Counted from the stretch's first letter, positions 41,791-47,031 are shown. The stretch: 47,031 nucleotides of DNA from Nitrospiria bacterium (GCA_035517655.1 DATIYJ010000066.1:1-47031); one strand, 5' to 3'. The notes: generated by a model from the sequence alone, not told the origin. Numbers and translations: made by a program.

Positions 41791-41820
41791 AAAGGGGGTG
41801 ACACGCGTCACCCCCCTTGC
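41791..41820 (-). terminator. Rho-independent terminator of the cytochrome operon
   Basis: On the minus strand GGGGGTGAC-GCGT-GTCACCCCC followed by TTTTGCGTTT: a perfect 9-bp stem with a four-base loop, 20 bases after the last cytochrome gene stops. It separates that operon from moeA. Confidence 0.8.
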
Positions 41821-41840: not shown

Positions 41841-43541
41841 TTATTTGCGCTTTTGCTTATCCGCGCTGACCTTGCGAATGATCCAGCCCTCGATTCCGAA
41901 GACCACGATCACGGCGAAGAACGGATAAACATACGCCTGCATCGGAGTCGGCGGCTGAAGGATGGTGTAGTACCAGGTCGAGATCGACGTCTTCAAACCA
42001 TGGTCGCCGTTGTTGCCGTCCCAGACGAAGAACACGGTCGGAATATATTTCCCCATTTCAAATTGCACGTCGTTTTCCTTGTCGCTCGTGGTCATCGCGC
42101 GTGTCATAATGACGTACCAGCGGCCGTCTTTATACTCGGCATAAACCGTTTTCACGTTGTGCGTGGGACGGGCATCCAGCTTCAGGTCGCCGCCGATCGA
42201 CCCGTGACCGGTATATTCGGTCGTCGTTCCGTCGGCCTCCCATTTCCAGACATCGACCGCGTTCTTGGTATCCCCGAATATGAACCGCGGCTTCTCCGGC
42301 GGGGCCAACGTCTGCCACTTGGCGGGAAACTGGATGGCAACCGCATCGTTGAACATCGGGTATTGCCTCAATGCGATCGGCTCCCCGGCCGGCGGCGTTT
42401 CCTGGAAACTGGCCGCTTGCGCCAACGTTTCCGGAGTGGCCACGCTCTTGATCCGATCGTCCCATTCAAACTCCCAGCCGATTTCTTTGCCGTTGAAGAT
42501 GGACTTCACCCAAACATCGTCCACCAGACGGACGAAGTTGCGGGGTTTGTGGGTGATCTGCCCGGCCAGACCGATATACTGCGGATCGATTTTCTGCCAG
42601 GTCGGATCATTCGGGTTGCTCGGTATATCACCTTTGACAAAGAGCGATTTGACCACAAACGACAGGGCCGGATGGGCCGTCAGCGGATCGATCTTTTGCT
42701 TCGGGCAGAGGGAAATCACAAAATTGGCCACGTCCCAACGCTGTTCCGGAGTCAGGGCATCGGCGAACGAGGGCATCGGGGTGCCGTTCAGGCCGGTCGA
42801 GACTTCCCGGAAGATGTTCCTTGGATTATAGGGATCTTCACGGTTCCCGCGGAAGTTCCAGCATTTGTGCAGATCGGCCGGAAAGATGGGGAAGCCCCAC
42901 TCATCCTTCTGGGTTTTGTTCCCGTCGCCGCGCTCGTCATTGCCGTGGCACTCCACGCACTTCCCCTTGTTCATGAAAACATCCTTCCCTCTTTTGATGC
43001 TTTCGTCGGAGGTGGGGATCTGTTTGCCGAAGTCGATCACATGGAAGTCTTCATTCTCGGTATCCTGAAAGTTCCGGTCTTTCACAAGATTGGTCATGAC
43101 GAACGCGATCACCTGGTGGCGCTGCTGGTCGGTCAGAATCCCATCCCAGGACGGCATGGCGGAGCCCGGCAATCCGTGGGTCACGGTCAAGAAGAGATCG
43201 TTCTCGGTCGGAAGCTCGCCGCTCGCCGTGGTCCGAATCTTGAATGTTCCCGCGTTGAAATTTCTGGGCCTCGGCCAGAGGCGATCGGCCGACGGCCCGT
43301 CTCCCGCGCCTTCGGGGCCGTGGCACCAAACACACTTCTTAAAATAGATCTGCTTGCCGGCATCGATATCGGGCTGCGATGGCTTGGCCGGACGACCCGC
43401 GCCCGCGGCAGCGGCGGGGGCCTTTTCATCCTTGGTCTGGGCCAAGGTCAGGACCACGCTTCCGGATGCGATGAGCGCAACCGTGACGATCCCCACCGCG
43501 ACCGCTTTCTTATTTCCGAAGACAGATAAAATCTTGTTCAT
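41841..43541 (-). CDS. Di-heme cytochrome c with NxrC/ethylbenzene-dehydrogenase-gamma-like domain
   Basis: 566 residues from ATG 43541 (MNKILSVFGNKK), with AAAGGGG upstream. An N-terminal helix (about 11-33) is a signal or anchor. Two c-heme sites follow, CVWCHG (about 70) and CVECHG (about 195), each in a cytochrome-c-like domain with PSW and MPSF axial-Met segments. From about 280 the protein resembles the heme-b-binding gamma subunit of ethylbenzene and DMSO dehydrogenases (VWVKSIFNGKEIGWEFEWDDR, DAVAIQFPAKW, VWKWEADG, GRWYVIMTRAM). A single C-terminal helix (about 540-556) anchors it. In Nitrospira such proteins are candidate NXR gamma subunits or oxidase partners. Last gene of the operon. 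Confidence 0.82.
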   Translation of the reverse strand: MNKILSVFGNKKAVAVGIVTVALIASGSVVLTLAQTKDEKAPAAAAGAGRPAKPSQPDIDAGKQIYFKKCVWCHGPEGAGDGPSADRLWPRPRNFNAGTFKIRTTASGELPTENDLFLTVTHGLPGSAMPSWDGILTDQQRHQVIAFVMTNLVKDRNFQDTENEDFHVIDFGKQIPTSDESIKRGKDVFMNKGKCVECHGNDERGDGNKTQKDEWGFPIFPADLHKCWNFRGNREDPYNPRNIFREVSTGLNGTPMPSFADALTPEQRWDVANFVISLCPKQKIDPLTAHPALSFVVKSLFVKGDIPSNPNDPTWQKIDPQYIGLAGQITHKPRNFVRLVDDVWVKSIFNGKEIGWEFEWDDRIKSVATPETLAQAASFQETPPAGEPIALRQYPMFNDAVAIQFPAKWQTLAPPEKPRFIFGDTKNAVDVWKWEADGTTTEYTGHGSIGGDLKLDARPTHNVKTVYAEYKDGRWYVIMTRAMTTSDKENDVQFEMGKYIPTVFFVWDGNNGDHGLKTSISTWYYTILQPPTPMQAYVYPFFAVIVVFGIEGWIIRKVSADKQKRK

Positions 43542-43583
43542 CGCTCGTGCCCCTTTCACGTAAACGGATGATGGACCCTAATT

Positions 43584-44495
43584 CTAATCCCATGTCCTGG
43601 GGAAGAATTCCGTATGCCAATATTCAAACATGTTCACTTTCCAGATCTCATCCGTGGTCAGATGTTCCTCCCACGGAGGCATGGCGGAGGCCCAGGGGAA
43701 ACCTTCCCGAGGAAGCCCGGGTCCTCCCTTCGAGATTCGCCAGAAGACGAAGGTCTCCTGAAGCTGGGCGATGGTTCCCGGGTCGGAAAAGTTGGCCGGA
43801 ATCGGGTTGAAGGCAAACGCAAACATACCGCGGCCGTTCAGGTTGTCGCCGTGGCAGAAATGACAGTTCTGAAAGAAAATGGCCCCGCCTTCCCTCACAT
43901 ACAAAAGGTACCCTTTCGCATCCGGTGAAAAGGGATTCATATGAAAATACTTTTCCTCTTTACCCACATCCAGATAATTTCCATTTTCATCGACGCGGAA
44001 GGGATTGCGGGCGGTTTGCAGTGTGAAGTTTTGGCCGCGTACCGTGACGGCCGCGGGCGGCGCCGGATGCACGGTTCTCAGTTCGACCGGTTCGTCGAAA
44101 GACGGAACGATCAAATCGTAGGTCCCGTAGCCCACCAACAAAGGAATCGCCACGAAGGAAACCGTTCTGACCCCCTTGTAAATCGGGGTCGCGGCCATGA
44201 CGGTATTGAGGATCGGCCTCTTAAATTCCGTCCATCCCTTCTCCGTGGATGAAATGAACAGGAAGACAACCAGGGTGACCAGCCCCATGTAGGTGTAGAG
44301 AAGCGCGGAAGGAATCGGCGGGGTCAACACATACTTGAAAATCGTGTAGGCCCCAAGCCAGAGCAGAATGGCCTGCGGGAAAGCCGGGATCCTTTTGCCT
44401 ATGTTAGTCAGCAAATAATTGATGCCGACATAGGCAATCGCCACGGCCGTGATAATTAGGAGCAGTTCAATAGGTTGTATACCTGGAATCCACAT
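43584..44495 (-). CDS. Membrane-anchored mono-heme cytochrome c
   Basis: 303 residues from ATG 44495; GGAGGTGAG is 3-5 bases upstream. Four hydrophobic helices (about 8-30, 40-58, 64-82, 110-130) precede an extracytoplasmic cytochrome c domain with CHFCHG (C211-H215) and a likely Met ligand in ASAMPPWEEHLTTDEIW. The linker (VRGQNFTLQTARNPFRVDENGNY) is shared by many Nitrospirota homologues as far as I recall. It is likely a membrane subunit that relays electrons within the same complex as its neighbours. Spacing: 42 bases before the next gene. Confidence 0.8.
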   Translation of the reverse strand: MWIPGIQPIELLLIITAVAIAYVGINYLLTNIGKRIPAFPQAILLWLGAYTIFKYVLTPPIPSALLYTYMGLVTLVVFLFISSTEKGWTEFKRPILNTVMAATPIYKGVRTVSFVAIPLLVGYGTYDLIVPSFDEPVELRTVHPAPPAAVTVRGQNFTLQTARNPFRVDENGNYLDVGKEEKYFHMNPFSPDAKGYLLYVREGGAIFFQNCHFCHGDNLNGRGMFAFAFNPIPANFSDPGTIAQLQETFVFWRISKGGPGLPREGFPWASAMPPWEEHLTTDEIWKVNMFEYWHTEFFPRTWD

Positions 44496-44557
44496 CACTC
44501 ACCTCCAGAAAATTTCGGGGATGACAATAATTGAAAAGCTTCCTTATCGGCCGACAC

Positions 44558-45784
44558 TCATTTGGCCGAAGCCGACTTCCCTCCACCGCCGCCGCAGACT
44601 GTGGCGAATGATTCTTGCGGGGGCCCTTTTAAACCGTCCTTTTGAGCTTGTTCACAGTTCTGTGCCAATAAATAGTCGGCCATCTTTTCCAAGGCCCCGT
44701 AAGTAAACTTCTGGGCAAAGTCCTGAATCATCGGTGAAACGGTCGGAGTGGCCTTTTGGACAAACTGGGGAACAATAAACGCATTCGGATTGACGATGGA
44801 TTCCATCACGTATTCCTTCGGCGTTTTTGCATGGGCCTTCCCCGCTTTGACCTGGGCCTGGTATGCCGGAGAGGCAATACGTCTGGCCGCATTGTGCCCT
44901 TCGATCAACAGAGGCCCGATCACACCGAACTTCGCGGTGGCGATCCCCGGAATCTGATGGCAGGCAAAACAACCCATCTTCGTCACGATCTGCTCCGGTG
45001 TATCGGAGGCCAACGCAACGGGCGGACCGGCCGCTGCGGGAGCCTGCGCGGTGGTCGGAGCGCCTGCTTTGGGCCGATCGGATTCCGGGATGAATTTTTC
45101 GTAAGCCGCACGGATTTCTTTTGCAGAAGGCGGGGTATTCCCTTCCCTGAAAAACAGCCAGGTATCAACCGCAATCAGCTGATCGATGGTCAAACTGATC
45201 GGGGGCTTGTGAATGGCCGGCATCGGGCTCTCTCTGTCGTTGGTGCCCTTTGTGCCAAAGCCCGCGACCACATAACAGGACGGACAAACGTGAGACTCGG
45301 CGATATACTCTTCGGCCGTCGTGGCCCGACCGCTCCCTTTAAAGGACTCGGTCTGAACGGTATCGGGCTTCAAATATCGGGGATCCTTGATCCGCTCTGC
45401 GGCCCGCTCGGCAATCCCGATCAGGTTCGGCGCGCGATCCCCGATATCGCCTTTCTTAAAGGTATGACAAAGTGGGCATTGCCCCGGCCCGATGCCTCGC
45501 TCGGCAAACCCGCCGACCTTTCCAAAAATCACCGCTTCGCCCATATCGGCCAGTTTATCCGTCGGCATGGCGTCCACTGCTCCGGCCTCCATCTTCGGCG
45601 GGGGCGGCGGAACTTCACCACGGGTTTGCGGGAGCCAGTTCGAATAGGTGTCAAAAATTCCGGTCATGACCGCGTAAAAACCAATGGCTACGAGGATAGT
45701 TCGTAACTTTGGAAAATTGTAGGCCAGTATGAAAAGAAGGACCGGAGCTAACAGGATTACAACGGATAAATACCCTTTTGTCAC
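44558..45784 (-). CDS. Membrane-anchored multi-heme cytochrome c with one CxxCY site
   Basis: 408 residues from a GTG with AGGAG upstream. Two N-terminal helices (about 5-22, 28-45) are followed by a long Pro-rich linker and cytochrome modules. Heme sites: CPLCH (C103-H107), CPSCY (C167-Y171) and CFACH (C272-H276). The middle one has Tyr in place of the His that normally ligates heme iron, so it either binds heme unusually or not at all. A Pro/Ala linker (about 240-260) separates the modules, and the C-terminus is Gly-rich. It follows the bd-like gene, separated by a strong hairpin (45810-45830). Confidence 0.8.
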   Translation of the reverse strand: MTKGYLSVVILLAPVLLFILAYNFPKLRTILVAIGFYAVMTGIFDTYSNWLPQTRGEVPPPPPKMEAGAVDAMPTDKLADMGEAVIFGKVGGFAERGIGPGQCPLCHTFKKGDIGDRAPNLIGIAERAAERIKDPRYLKPDTVQTESFKGSGRATTAEEYIAESHVCPSCYVVAGFGTKGTNDRESPMPAIHKPPISLTIDQLIAVDTWLFFREGNTPPSAKEIRAAYEKFIPESDRPKAGAPTTAQAPAAAGPPVALASDTPEQIVTKMGCFACHQIPGIATAKFGVIGPLLIEGHNAARRIASPAYQAQVKAGKAHAKTPKEYVMESIVNPNAFIVPQFVQKATPTVSPMIQDFAQKFTYGALEKMADYLLAQNCEQAQKDGLKGPPQESFATVCGGGGGKSASAK

Positions 45785-45809
45785 GTTTAATCTCCTGTGG
45801 GTAAGTTTT

Positions 45810-45830
45810 GGGGGCCGGCAGCCGGCCCCC
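45810..45830 (-). other. Strong intercistronic hairpin in the oxidase operon
   Basis: GGGGGCCGGC-T-GCCGGCCCCC on the minus strand: arms of ten perfectly complementary bases, between the bd-like gene stop and the next GTG. Followed by AAAAC rather than U residues, so it is not an intrinsic terminator. It probably stabilises or processes the mRNA and uncouples expression of the membrane subunit from the cytochromes. Confidence 0.6.
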
Positions 45831-45854
45831 AGAGATTATTAATGAGGTGGGCGT

Positions 45855-47030
45855 TTACTCCGAGCCACCGGCTATTACGGGTCTTGCAATCTCTTTCTTC
45901 GCCTCGGCAACCGCATGCTTTGAGGTCAGTTCGCCCAACCAGAACACGAACAACACAAATAACCAGAAGGCCAGAACGTTCAACGACATCATATTCGCAG
46001 CAAACCCGATCGTGTGGGTAAAGGCCCACGGGGAATTATCCCGAAAGACTTCCATCACGTGCCAGAACAAGCGCACCGAGGACCGGATGTATCCCATCAA
46101 GGCCATCAACCATGTAAAGGAGACCGCCAACGCAAACAAGGCGTACTGCGAACGAACCGAGATTTTACCCCACTCGATCGGACCGGTCAACTTGGACCCC
46201 CTCATCATCGCAATGTTGATTGCGCTCCCCACAAACAAGGTGGTTAACGTTCCGATCACCTGGGGTACCGAGAGCCCGACGCGCACGTTGGCCGGGATGT
46301 AATATCCGTAGATCGCCAGCCACCAGTTGTTCACAAGGGCCACCGTAAACATCGCCATCAATGCGGCGTTGCCCCAGGCCTCCCATTTCACCGTAACGAT
46401 TTTATTGCTGCGTTGATACAAAAGAAACGAAATGATCGTGGTCATGATCATGGTGTTCACGGCCCCGTTCTTGGCCGACATAACGCCGAAGTTTCCGATT
46501 ACGGGGTGCTGCTGCCCGCCGATCGCTTTCAACTCGGCCGGTCGCATGACCAAGGTATGCGGCGTCAACCAGACCAGGAAGGCGGCGGTTGTAAGGAAAA
46601 GAACATACTTGATGTATTTTTGGTACCGCTCCGCCCCCCTCATCCGCTCCATGCCGTTGAACAGGTAGTAGTTGGTGGAAAAGAAGAGCGCGCCGATCAG
46701 AACCGCCTGGATGATGAACAACCAGGCCAGCAGACCGCCCATCAGCGTAATGCCCATCTGTTGACGGAAACCGTAGACCTCGCGCATCAGCCAGTAACCG
46801 GCGAAGGGCAACGGGATTAACGATGCAACCGCCATGAACATCGCGATGTAGCCCATCCAGTCGTAGTAGGCTTTTTCTTCCTGGTTCTTAGCCGCGAGAA
46901 ATTTATAGGCCGCGTAGGCCGCAACGATTCCGCCGCCGAACACCATGTTCCCGATGATCCGGTGAACGTTCAGAGGATTCCATAAGGCATTGTGCATGAC
47001 CGCCCAGAGATTCCCCAAATATCTCCCCTT
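45855..47030 (-). CDS. Cytochrome bd-like oxidase subunit I, 5' end outside the window
   Basis: The frame is open to the right edge (residues KGRYLGNLWAVMHNALWNPLNVHRIIGN), so the N-terminus is missing; TTG at 47018 is not a credible start. About 392 residues with ten or so hydrophobic helices remain. The pattern resembles CydA-related proteins: early His in NVHRIIGNMVFGGG, PLPFAGYWLMREVYGFRQQMG, and TPHTLVMRPAELKAIGG. Canonical CydA motifs such as the Q-loop are not recognisable, so it fits the divergent bd-like oxidases described in Nitrospira. Function as an oxygen reductase, or instead as a quinone-reactive membrane cytochrome, is uncertain. First visible gene of the cytochrome operon. 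Confidence 0.75.
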   Translation of the reverse strand, partial: KGRYLGNLWAVMHNALWNPLNVHRIIGNMVFGGGIVAAYAAYKFLAAKNQEEKAYYDWMGYIAMFMAVASLIPLPFAGYWLMREVYGFRQQMGITLMGGLLAWLFIIQAVLIGALFFSTNYYLFNGMERMRGAERYQKYIKYVLFLTTAAFLVWLTPHTLVMRPAELKAIGGQQHPVIGNFGVMSAKNGAVNTMIMTTIISFLLYQRSNKIVTVKWEAWGNAALMAMFTVALVNNWWLAIYGYYIPANVRVGLSVPQVIGTLTTLFVGSAINIAMMRGSKLTGPIEWGKISVRSQYALFALAVSFTWLMALMGYIRSSVRLFWHVMEVFRDNSPWAFTHTIGFAANMMSLNVLAFWLFVLFVFWLGELTSKHAVAEAKKEIARPVIAGGSE

Positions 47031-47031
47031 C

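Follow-up and report, generated by a model that had tools for sequence, protein, structure and literature searches.

Organization of the D-C-B-A locus

The DNA analysed here (the window, 47,031 nt) corresponds to the entire contig G000:C66 of a Nitrospiria genome of 2.65 Mb and 99% completeness. Reading inward from the contig end on the minus strand, it carries four genes, termed D, C, B and A, followed by a MoeA gene, an ArgS gene and a Tgt-like gene that was named by eye. D (45855-47031) encodes a bd-like membrane subunit of the CydA superfamily, of which the window holds the 3′ 391 codons only, the gene being cut by the contig end; full-length sister orthologues run to ~640 amino acids, so that ~250 N-terminal residues are missing from the window. 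The missing ~250 codons were sought in the rest of the assembly and not found, and a 5′ end of D on another contig was therefore rejected. C (44558-45784) encodes a membrane-anchored dihaem cytochrome c of 408 amino acids, B (43584-44498) a monohaem cytochrome c of 304 amino acids with three predicted N-terminal membrane helices, and A (41841-43559) a 572-amino-acid protein of the alt_NxrC_2 type in which a dihaem cytochrome c is fused to an NxrC-like EB_dh domain and a C-terminal membrane helix.

The intergenic gaps are short (70 bp for D/C, 59 bp for C/B and 24 bp for B/A), and 3′ of A lies a strong hairpin (41794-41816, minus strand) with a short T tail (TTTT), which sequence and fold mark as a probable terminator and which is unlisted by a consensus terminator scan. 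An earlier note on this DNA had described a CydA-like protein encoded together with three membrane cytochromes c in an operon ending at a single terminator; all four genes were confirmed on the minus strand, and the hairpin after A agrees with the single terminator. Together, the four genes form a genuine operon, and the membrane complex it encodes couples a divergent bd-like subunit to cytochromes c.

A second hairpin, also strong and G+C-rich, is predicted from the fold between D and C (45810-45830, minus strand), where it may perhaps serve RNA processing or stability; it is present with altered loops in the sister loci L091 and L092 and absent in L093.

Relationship to previously described clusters

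The four-gene cluster is already known, as the orthologue of the Nitrospira bd-like_3/alt_NxrC_2 cluster. In N. moscoviensis, this cluster encodes bd-like_3, a pair of membrane-bound cytochromes c and alt_NxrC_2, a protein with a single membrane helix and two haem motifs. It is strongly transcribed during nitrite growth and has been proposed to serve reverse electron flow or as an anchor for nitrite oxidoreductase (NXR) (PMC6606698). The same kind of bd-like protein has been discussed for Nitrospina, Kuenenia and Nitrospira, where haem b ligands are kept and quinol residues are missing, with a possible reverse complex III-like role and reverse electron flow to quinone already suggested (PMC3578206). 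The cluster itself is reported to be conserved in Nitrospina as well as in anammox bacteria. The novelty attached to the gene set by the earlier note was therefore overstated; its remark that no biochemistry had been assigned holds as far as literature could be found, since our search returned none for any member of the complex.

The host locus shares with that of N. moscoviensis (L112) the same four proteins and their order. Two genes with FGE-sulfatase (SUMF1-like) domains also lie upstream of D in both L112 (5564-7428) and the sister locus L091 (4189-7384). Unlike the Nitrospira cluster, the host complex occurs in a genome without NXR, and the nearby second copy, bd-like_4, is absent from the host genome and from the sister loci L091 and L092.

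Subunit D is a CydA homologue

The windowed part of D has no Pfam match, scoring 20.5 bits against the PF01654 cut-off of 26.2, and its homology to CydA is consequently shown only through full-length sisters: the window part is 95% identical to the C-terminal portion of the 640-aa sister orthologues, and a full-length sister D reaches 52.8 bits against the same cut-off. A PDB sequence search with a single D returned no match; a profile of the D family recovered the CydA proteins of Geobacillus (5doq, E 1e-13) and Mycobacterium smegmatis (9r2g). Furthermore, the ten best PDB fold matches to an AlphaFold2 model of D (pLDDT 77, pTM 0.77) are all CydA chains. D is a true CydA homologue, and the Pfam and fold matches speak against its being an unrelated transporter, an outcome that the earlier note had considered.

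D resembles the CydA of canonical CydAB in its N-terminal core, its overall fold and the positions of H19, E107 and H186. It differs in having no alignable Q-loop, GRQPW motif or E445, and in the ~13-14 helices of its model compared to nine in canonical CydA; in addition, the operon lacks CydB, and the subunits that partner D carry five c haem sites.

Because aligning D globally with the CydA profile gave no usable result, residue equivalences were taken from a local alignment, reliable up to about residue 300, a range that yields no counterpart of CydA M393. In this alignment, H102 of D matches CydA H19, a high-spin haem ligand in E. coli, E193 matches E107 and Y186 matches E99. Alignment to 5doq makes H272 (full-length orthologue numbering; 46962-46964, minus strand) the counterpart of CydA H186, a haem b558 ligand. 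H407, in a TPH motif (46557-46559, minus strand), is a further candidate haem ligand, as is H573 (46059-46061, minus strand) in the motif GYxRSSxRxxWH, which by eye takes the place of GWxxxExGRQPW in CydA. Across 126 family members, H272, H407, H573 and also H424 never vary; H102, whose codon is lost beyond the contig end and which was read from the sisters, is kept in 125 of 126. The alignment to CydA that the earlier note had proposed thus retains the equivalents of H19, E107 and H186 rather than losing all haem ligand positions; E99 and E445 are replaced by Tyr and Ser. The canonical CydA Q-loop has no alignable counterpart in D, as the profile alignment ends before the loop and the model has extra helices there, and no quinone site was identified in D.

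Cytochrome subunits A, B and C

The earlier note had counted at least five haem sites, and exactly five CxxCH motifs are found (two in A, one in B, two in C), each invariant or near-invariant and paired with a conserved distal Met among 79-93 relatives. In C, the motifs at residues 103 and 272 go with Met 188 and Met 352; in B, the motif at residue 212 goes with Met 273. Within the first of its cytochrome domains, C additionally carries a CPSCY sequence (45272-45286, minus strand), in which the Cys pair is present and Tyr or Phe replaces the haem His. This CPSC[Y/F] motif is invariant in 93 of 93 sequences, and we rejected it as a sixth haem site since the haem His is absent in all of them.

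The EB_dh domain of A (PF09459; 41988-42608, minus strand) scores 59.4 bits against a cut-off of 33.3, with weak matches to NxrC (7b04_C) and EbdC (2ivf_C); against TIGR03477, A scores 89.5, under the curated score of 169.85. In gamma subunits of type II DMSO reductases such as NxrC, a Met and a Lys ligate haem b. The candidate haem Lys of A (K523) is kept in 76 of 79 sequences and the Met is not conserved; of the NxrC-like haem b domain described in the earlier note, the domain itself stands, and haem b would be a putative cofactor. A resembles NxrC and the ethylbenzene dehydrogenase gamma subunit in its EB_dh domain and candidate haem Lys, and differs from them in its fusion to a dihaem cytochrome c and membrane helix, in the unconserved Met and in having no NXR catalytic partner in the host.

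The closest PDB entry to the dihaem cytochrome c part of A is 6h5l_B (E 8.5e-49). The host genome also encodes a separate cbb3-type oxidase, a fusion with COX1 and FixO domains, and the dihaem part of A shares homology with the C-terminal cytochrome c part of that oxidase (36% over 248 aa, E 6e-37), which suggests that A may dock the same cytochrome c. The oxidase gene (L212:1-2829, G000:C11) is a single 943-aa frame joining cbb3 subunits N and O to the A-homologous dihaem cytochrome c.

Conservation across the class is independent of NXR

A comparison of gene order among relatives, also suggested by the earlier note, found D-C-B-A in 63 of 80 named loci, N. moscoviensis included, with most exceptions being contig ends; this recurrence is far above chance. 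Counted at an E-value of at most 1e-100, D is present in 263 of 270 class genomes (~10 of the hits having only paralogue-level scores) and in 176 of the 177 high-quality genomes. NxrA is present in 187 of the 270 genomes and 131 of the 177, and the NxrA-bearing genomes listed all belong to families f2, f12 and f14. The D-C-B-A order was directly seen in eight families without NxrA (f1, f3, f5, f6, f7, f8, f9 and f11). These counts show that the set is conserved class-wide independently of nitrite oxidoreductase, and the complex is accordingly not merely an NXR accessory.

NxrA was not found in the host genome or its family, and NXR was on that ground rejected as partner of the host complex; the two PF00384 proteins of the host are one NuoG and one NuoG/formate dehydrogenase-like protein, neither of them NXR. 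This bears on the idea that the complex is an electron hub, a membrane anchor that gathers electrons from periplasmic dehydrogenases (NXR in nitrifiers) for cytochrome c, with D serving as a structural element or haem b relay only. The NxrC-like domain of A fits such a role, as does the published proposal of the cluster as NXR anchor point (PMC6606698). However, the occurrence of the complex in at least eight families without NxrA weakens the anchor idea, particularly as an anchor of NXR only, and favours a general respiratory role, the host itself has no NXR among its PF00384 proteins, and a mere anchor needs no membrane core with invariant candidate haem ligands. We regard the hub as improbable, though worth keeping in view.

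A paralogous module and the oxidase and forward-reductase alternatives

Contig 58 of the host carries a paralogous module that consists of bd1, a cytochrome c gene, a Rieske-like gene (named from sequence, with no Pfam match at strict threshold), a cytochrome b gene and bd2, then C-like, B-like and A-like genes and another dihaem cytochrome. In Nitrospira, the counterpart of the bd1/bd2 pair is the region of bd-like_1/2 and alt_NxrC_1, termed OR-N1/OR-N2 in the literature; a role as a cytochrome c-fed OR-N oxidase has been proposed for pairs of this kind (PMC10839748, PMC12342949). In having C-like, B-like and A-like genes after bd2, the module recalls the D operon; unlike D, the pair lies beside a cytochrome b gene, and no c haem motif is present in the A-like protein of the module. 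A tree separates four groups (D with bd4, bd2, bd1 and canonical CydA), read with the L176 rows carrying swapped bd1/bd2 labels and one bd2-labelled L177 row placed beside D and bd4. H102, H272, H407 and H573 are common to D and both paralogues, H407 being invariant in each.

These shared residues underlie the possibility that the complex is a cytochrome c oxidase, in which a haem site in D would use electrons delivered by A, B and C to reduce O2. The conserved equivalents of H19, H186 and E107 are in keeping with an oxidase, and the ligand set of D is that of paralogues for which oxidase function has been proposed. Since bd1 and bd2 carry the same candidate ligands, these residues cannot separate an oxidase from another function; the replacement of E445 and E99 counts against an oxidase, though both are likewise replaced in bd1 and bd2. 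Furthermore, according to PMC3578206 the cluster is conserved in anaerobic anammox bacteria, an argument against O2 as sole acceptor, and the genome already has the cbb3 oxidase and the separate bd-like pair. We consider an oxidase unlikely, at perhaps one case in four. The earlier note had left the choice between an oxidase and a complex running in reverse to reduce quinone; on the same grounds the first option is weakened and the second favoured.

A forward quinol:cytochrome c reductase, resembling alternative complex III, would have quinol reduce the cytochromes c. The same subunits could run in the quinol-oxidising direction and bd homology implies ancestral quinol contact, but a bc-type cytochrome b with a Rieske-like neighbour is already encoded in the genome, and quinol ligands are absent according to PMC3578206, leaving this direction very improbable.

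A candidate route from cytochrome c to quinone

We propose that the membrane complex, present class-wide, receives its electrons from periplasmic cytochrome c and most likely reduces quinone uphill, a reading to which we assign slightly less than an even chance. Electrons from high-potential periplasmic cytochrome c would enter via A, B and C, which would pass them to the haem(s) b of D; D would most likely hand them uphill to quinone, powered by the proton-motive force, and complex I could then make reductant for CO2 fixation. Such a complex would amount to a bd-based cytochrome c:quinone oxidoreductase operating in reverse. The exchange of electrons between a bd-like core and the periplasmic cytochrome c pool, put forward in the earlier note, is supported at the level of gene content, in the coupling to cytochromes c.

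The separate cbb3 oxidase and the additional bd-like module with its adjoining cytochrome b gene favour quinone reduction. Against it stand the lack of an identified quinone site, with the canonical Q-loop unalignable and the quinol residues reported as absent (PMC3578206), and the candidate ligands that D shares with the putative oxidases bd1 and bd2. The host genome holds two complex I loci, one of which resembles the 2M type. At this locus (L174:3-4662, G000:C45), three antiporter-like subunits lie in a row, possibly making it a complex I of the 2M type, which has been proposed for reverse electron transport.

Nitrification and manganese oxidation both pose the question of how electrons from very high-potential donors reach quinone and NADH; a complex retained in nearly all members of the class, whether or not they have NXR, makes a good candidate for the route. 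To the reverse electron flow already proposed, the present analysis adds this near class-wide presence, including whole families without the nitrite-oxidising enzyme. More tentatively, and with the balance tipping against it, D-C-B-A could be the general reverse cytochrome c:quinone oxidoreductase of Nitrospiria, working with any donor (nitrite, manganese or others) and independent of NXR. Manganese-oxidising Nitrospirota lack nitrification genes and have bd-like terminal oxidase clusters (PMC9040806), among which TO_1 may be the present cluster or the bd1/bd2 one.
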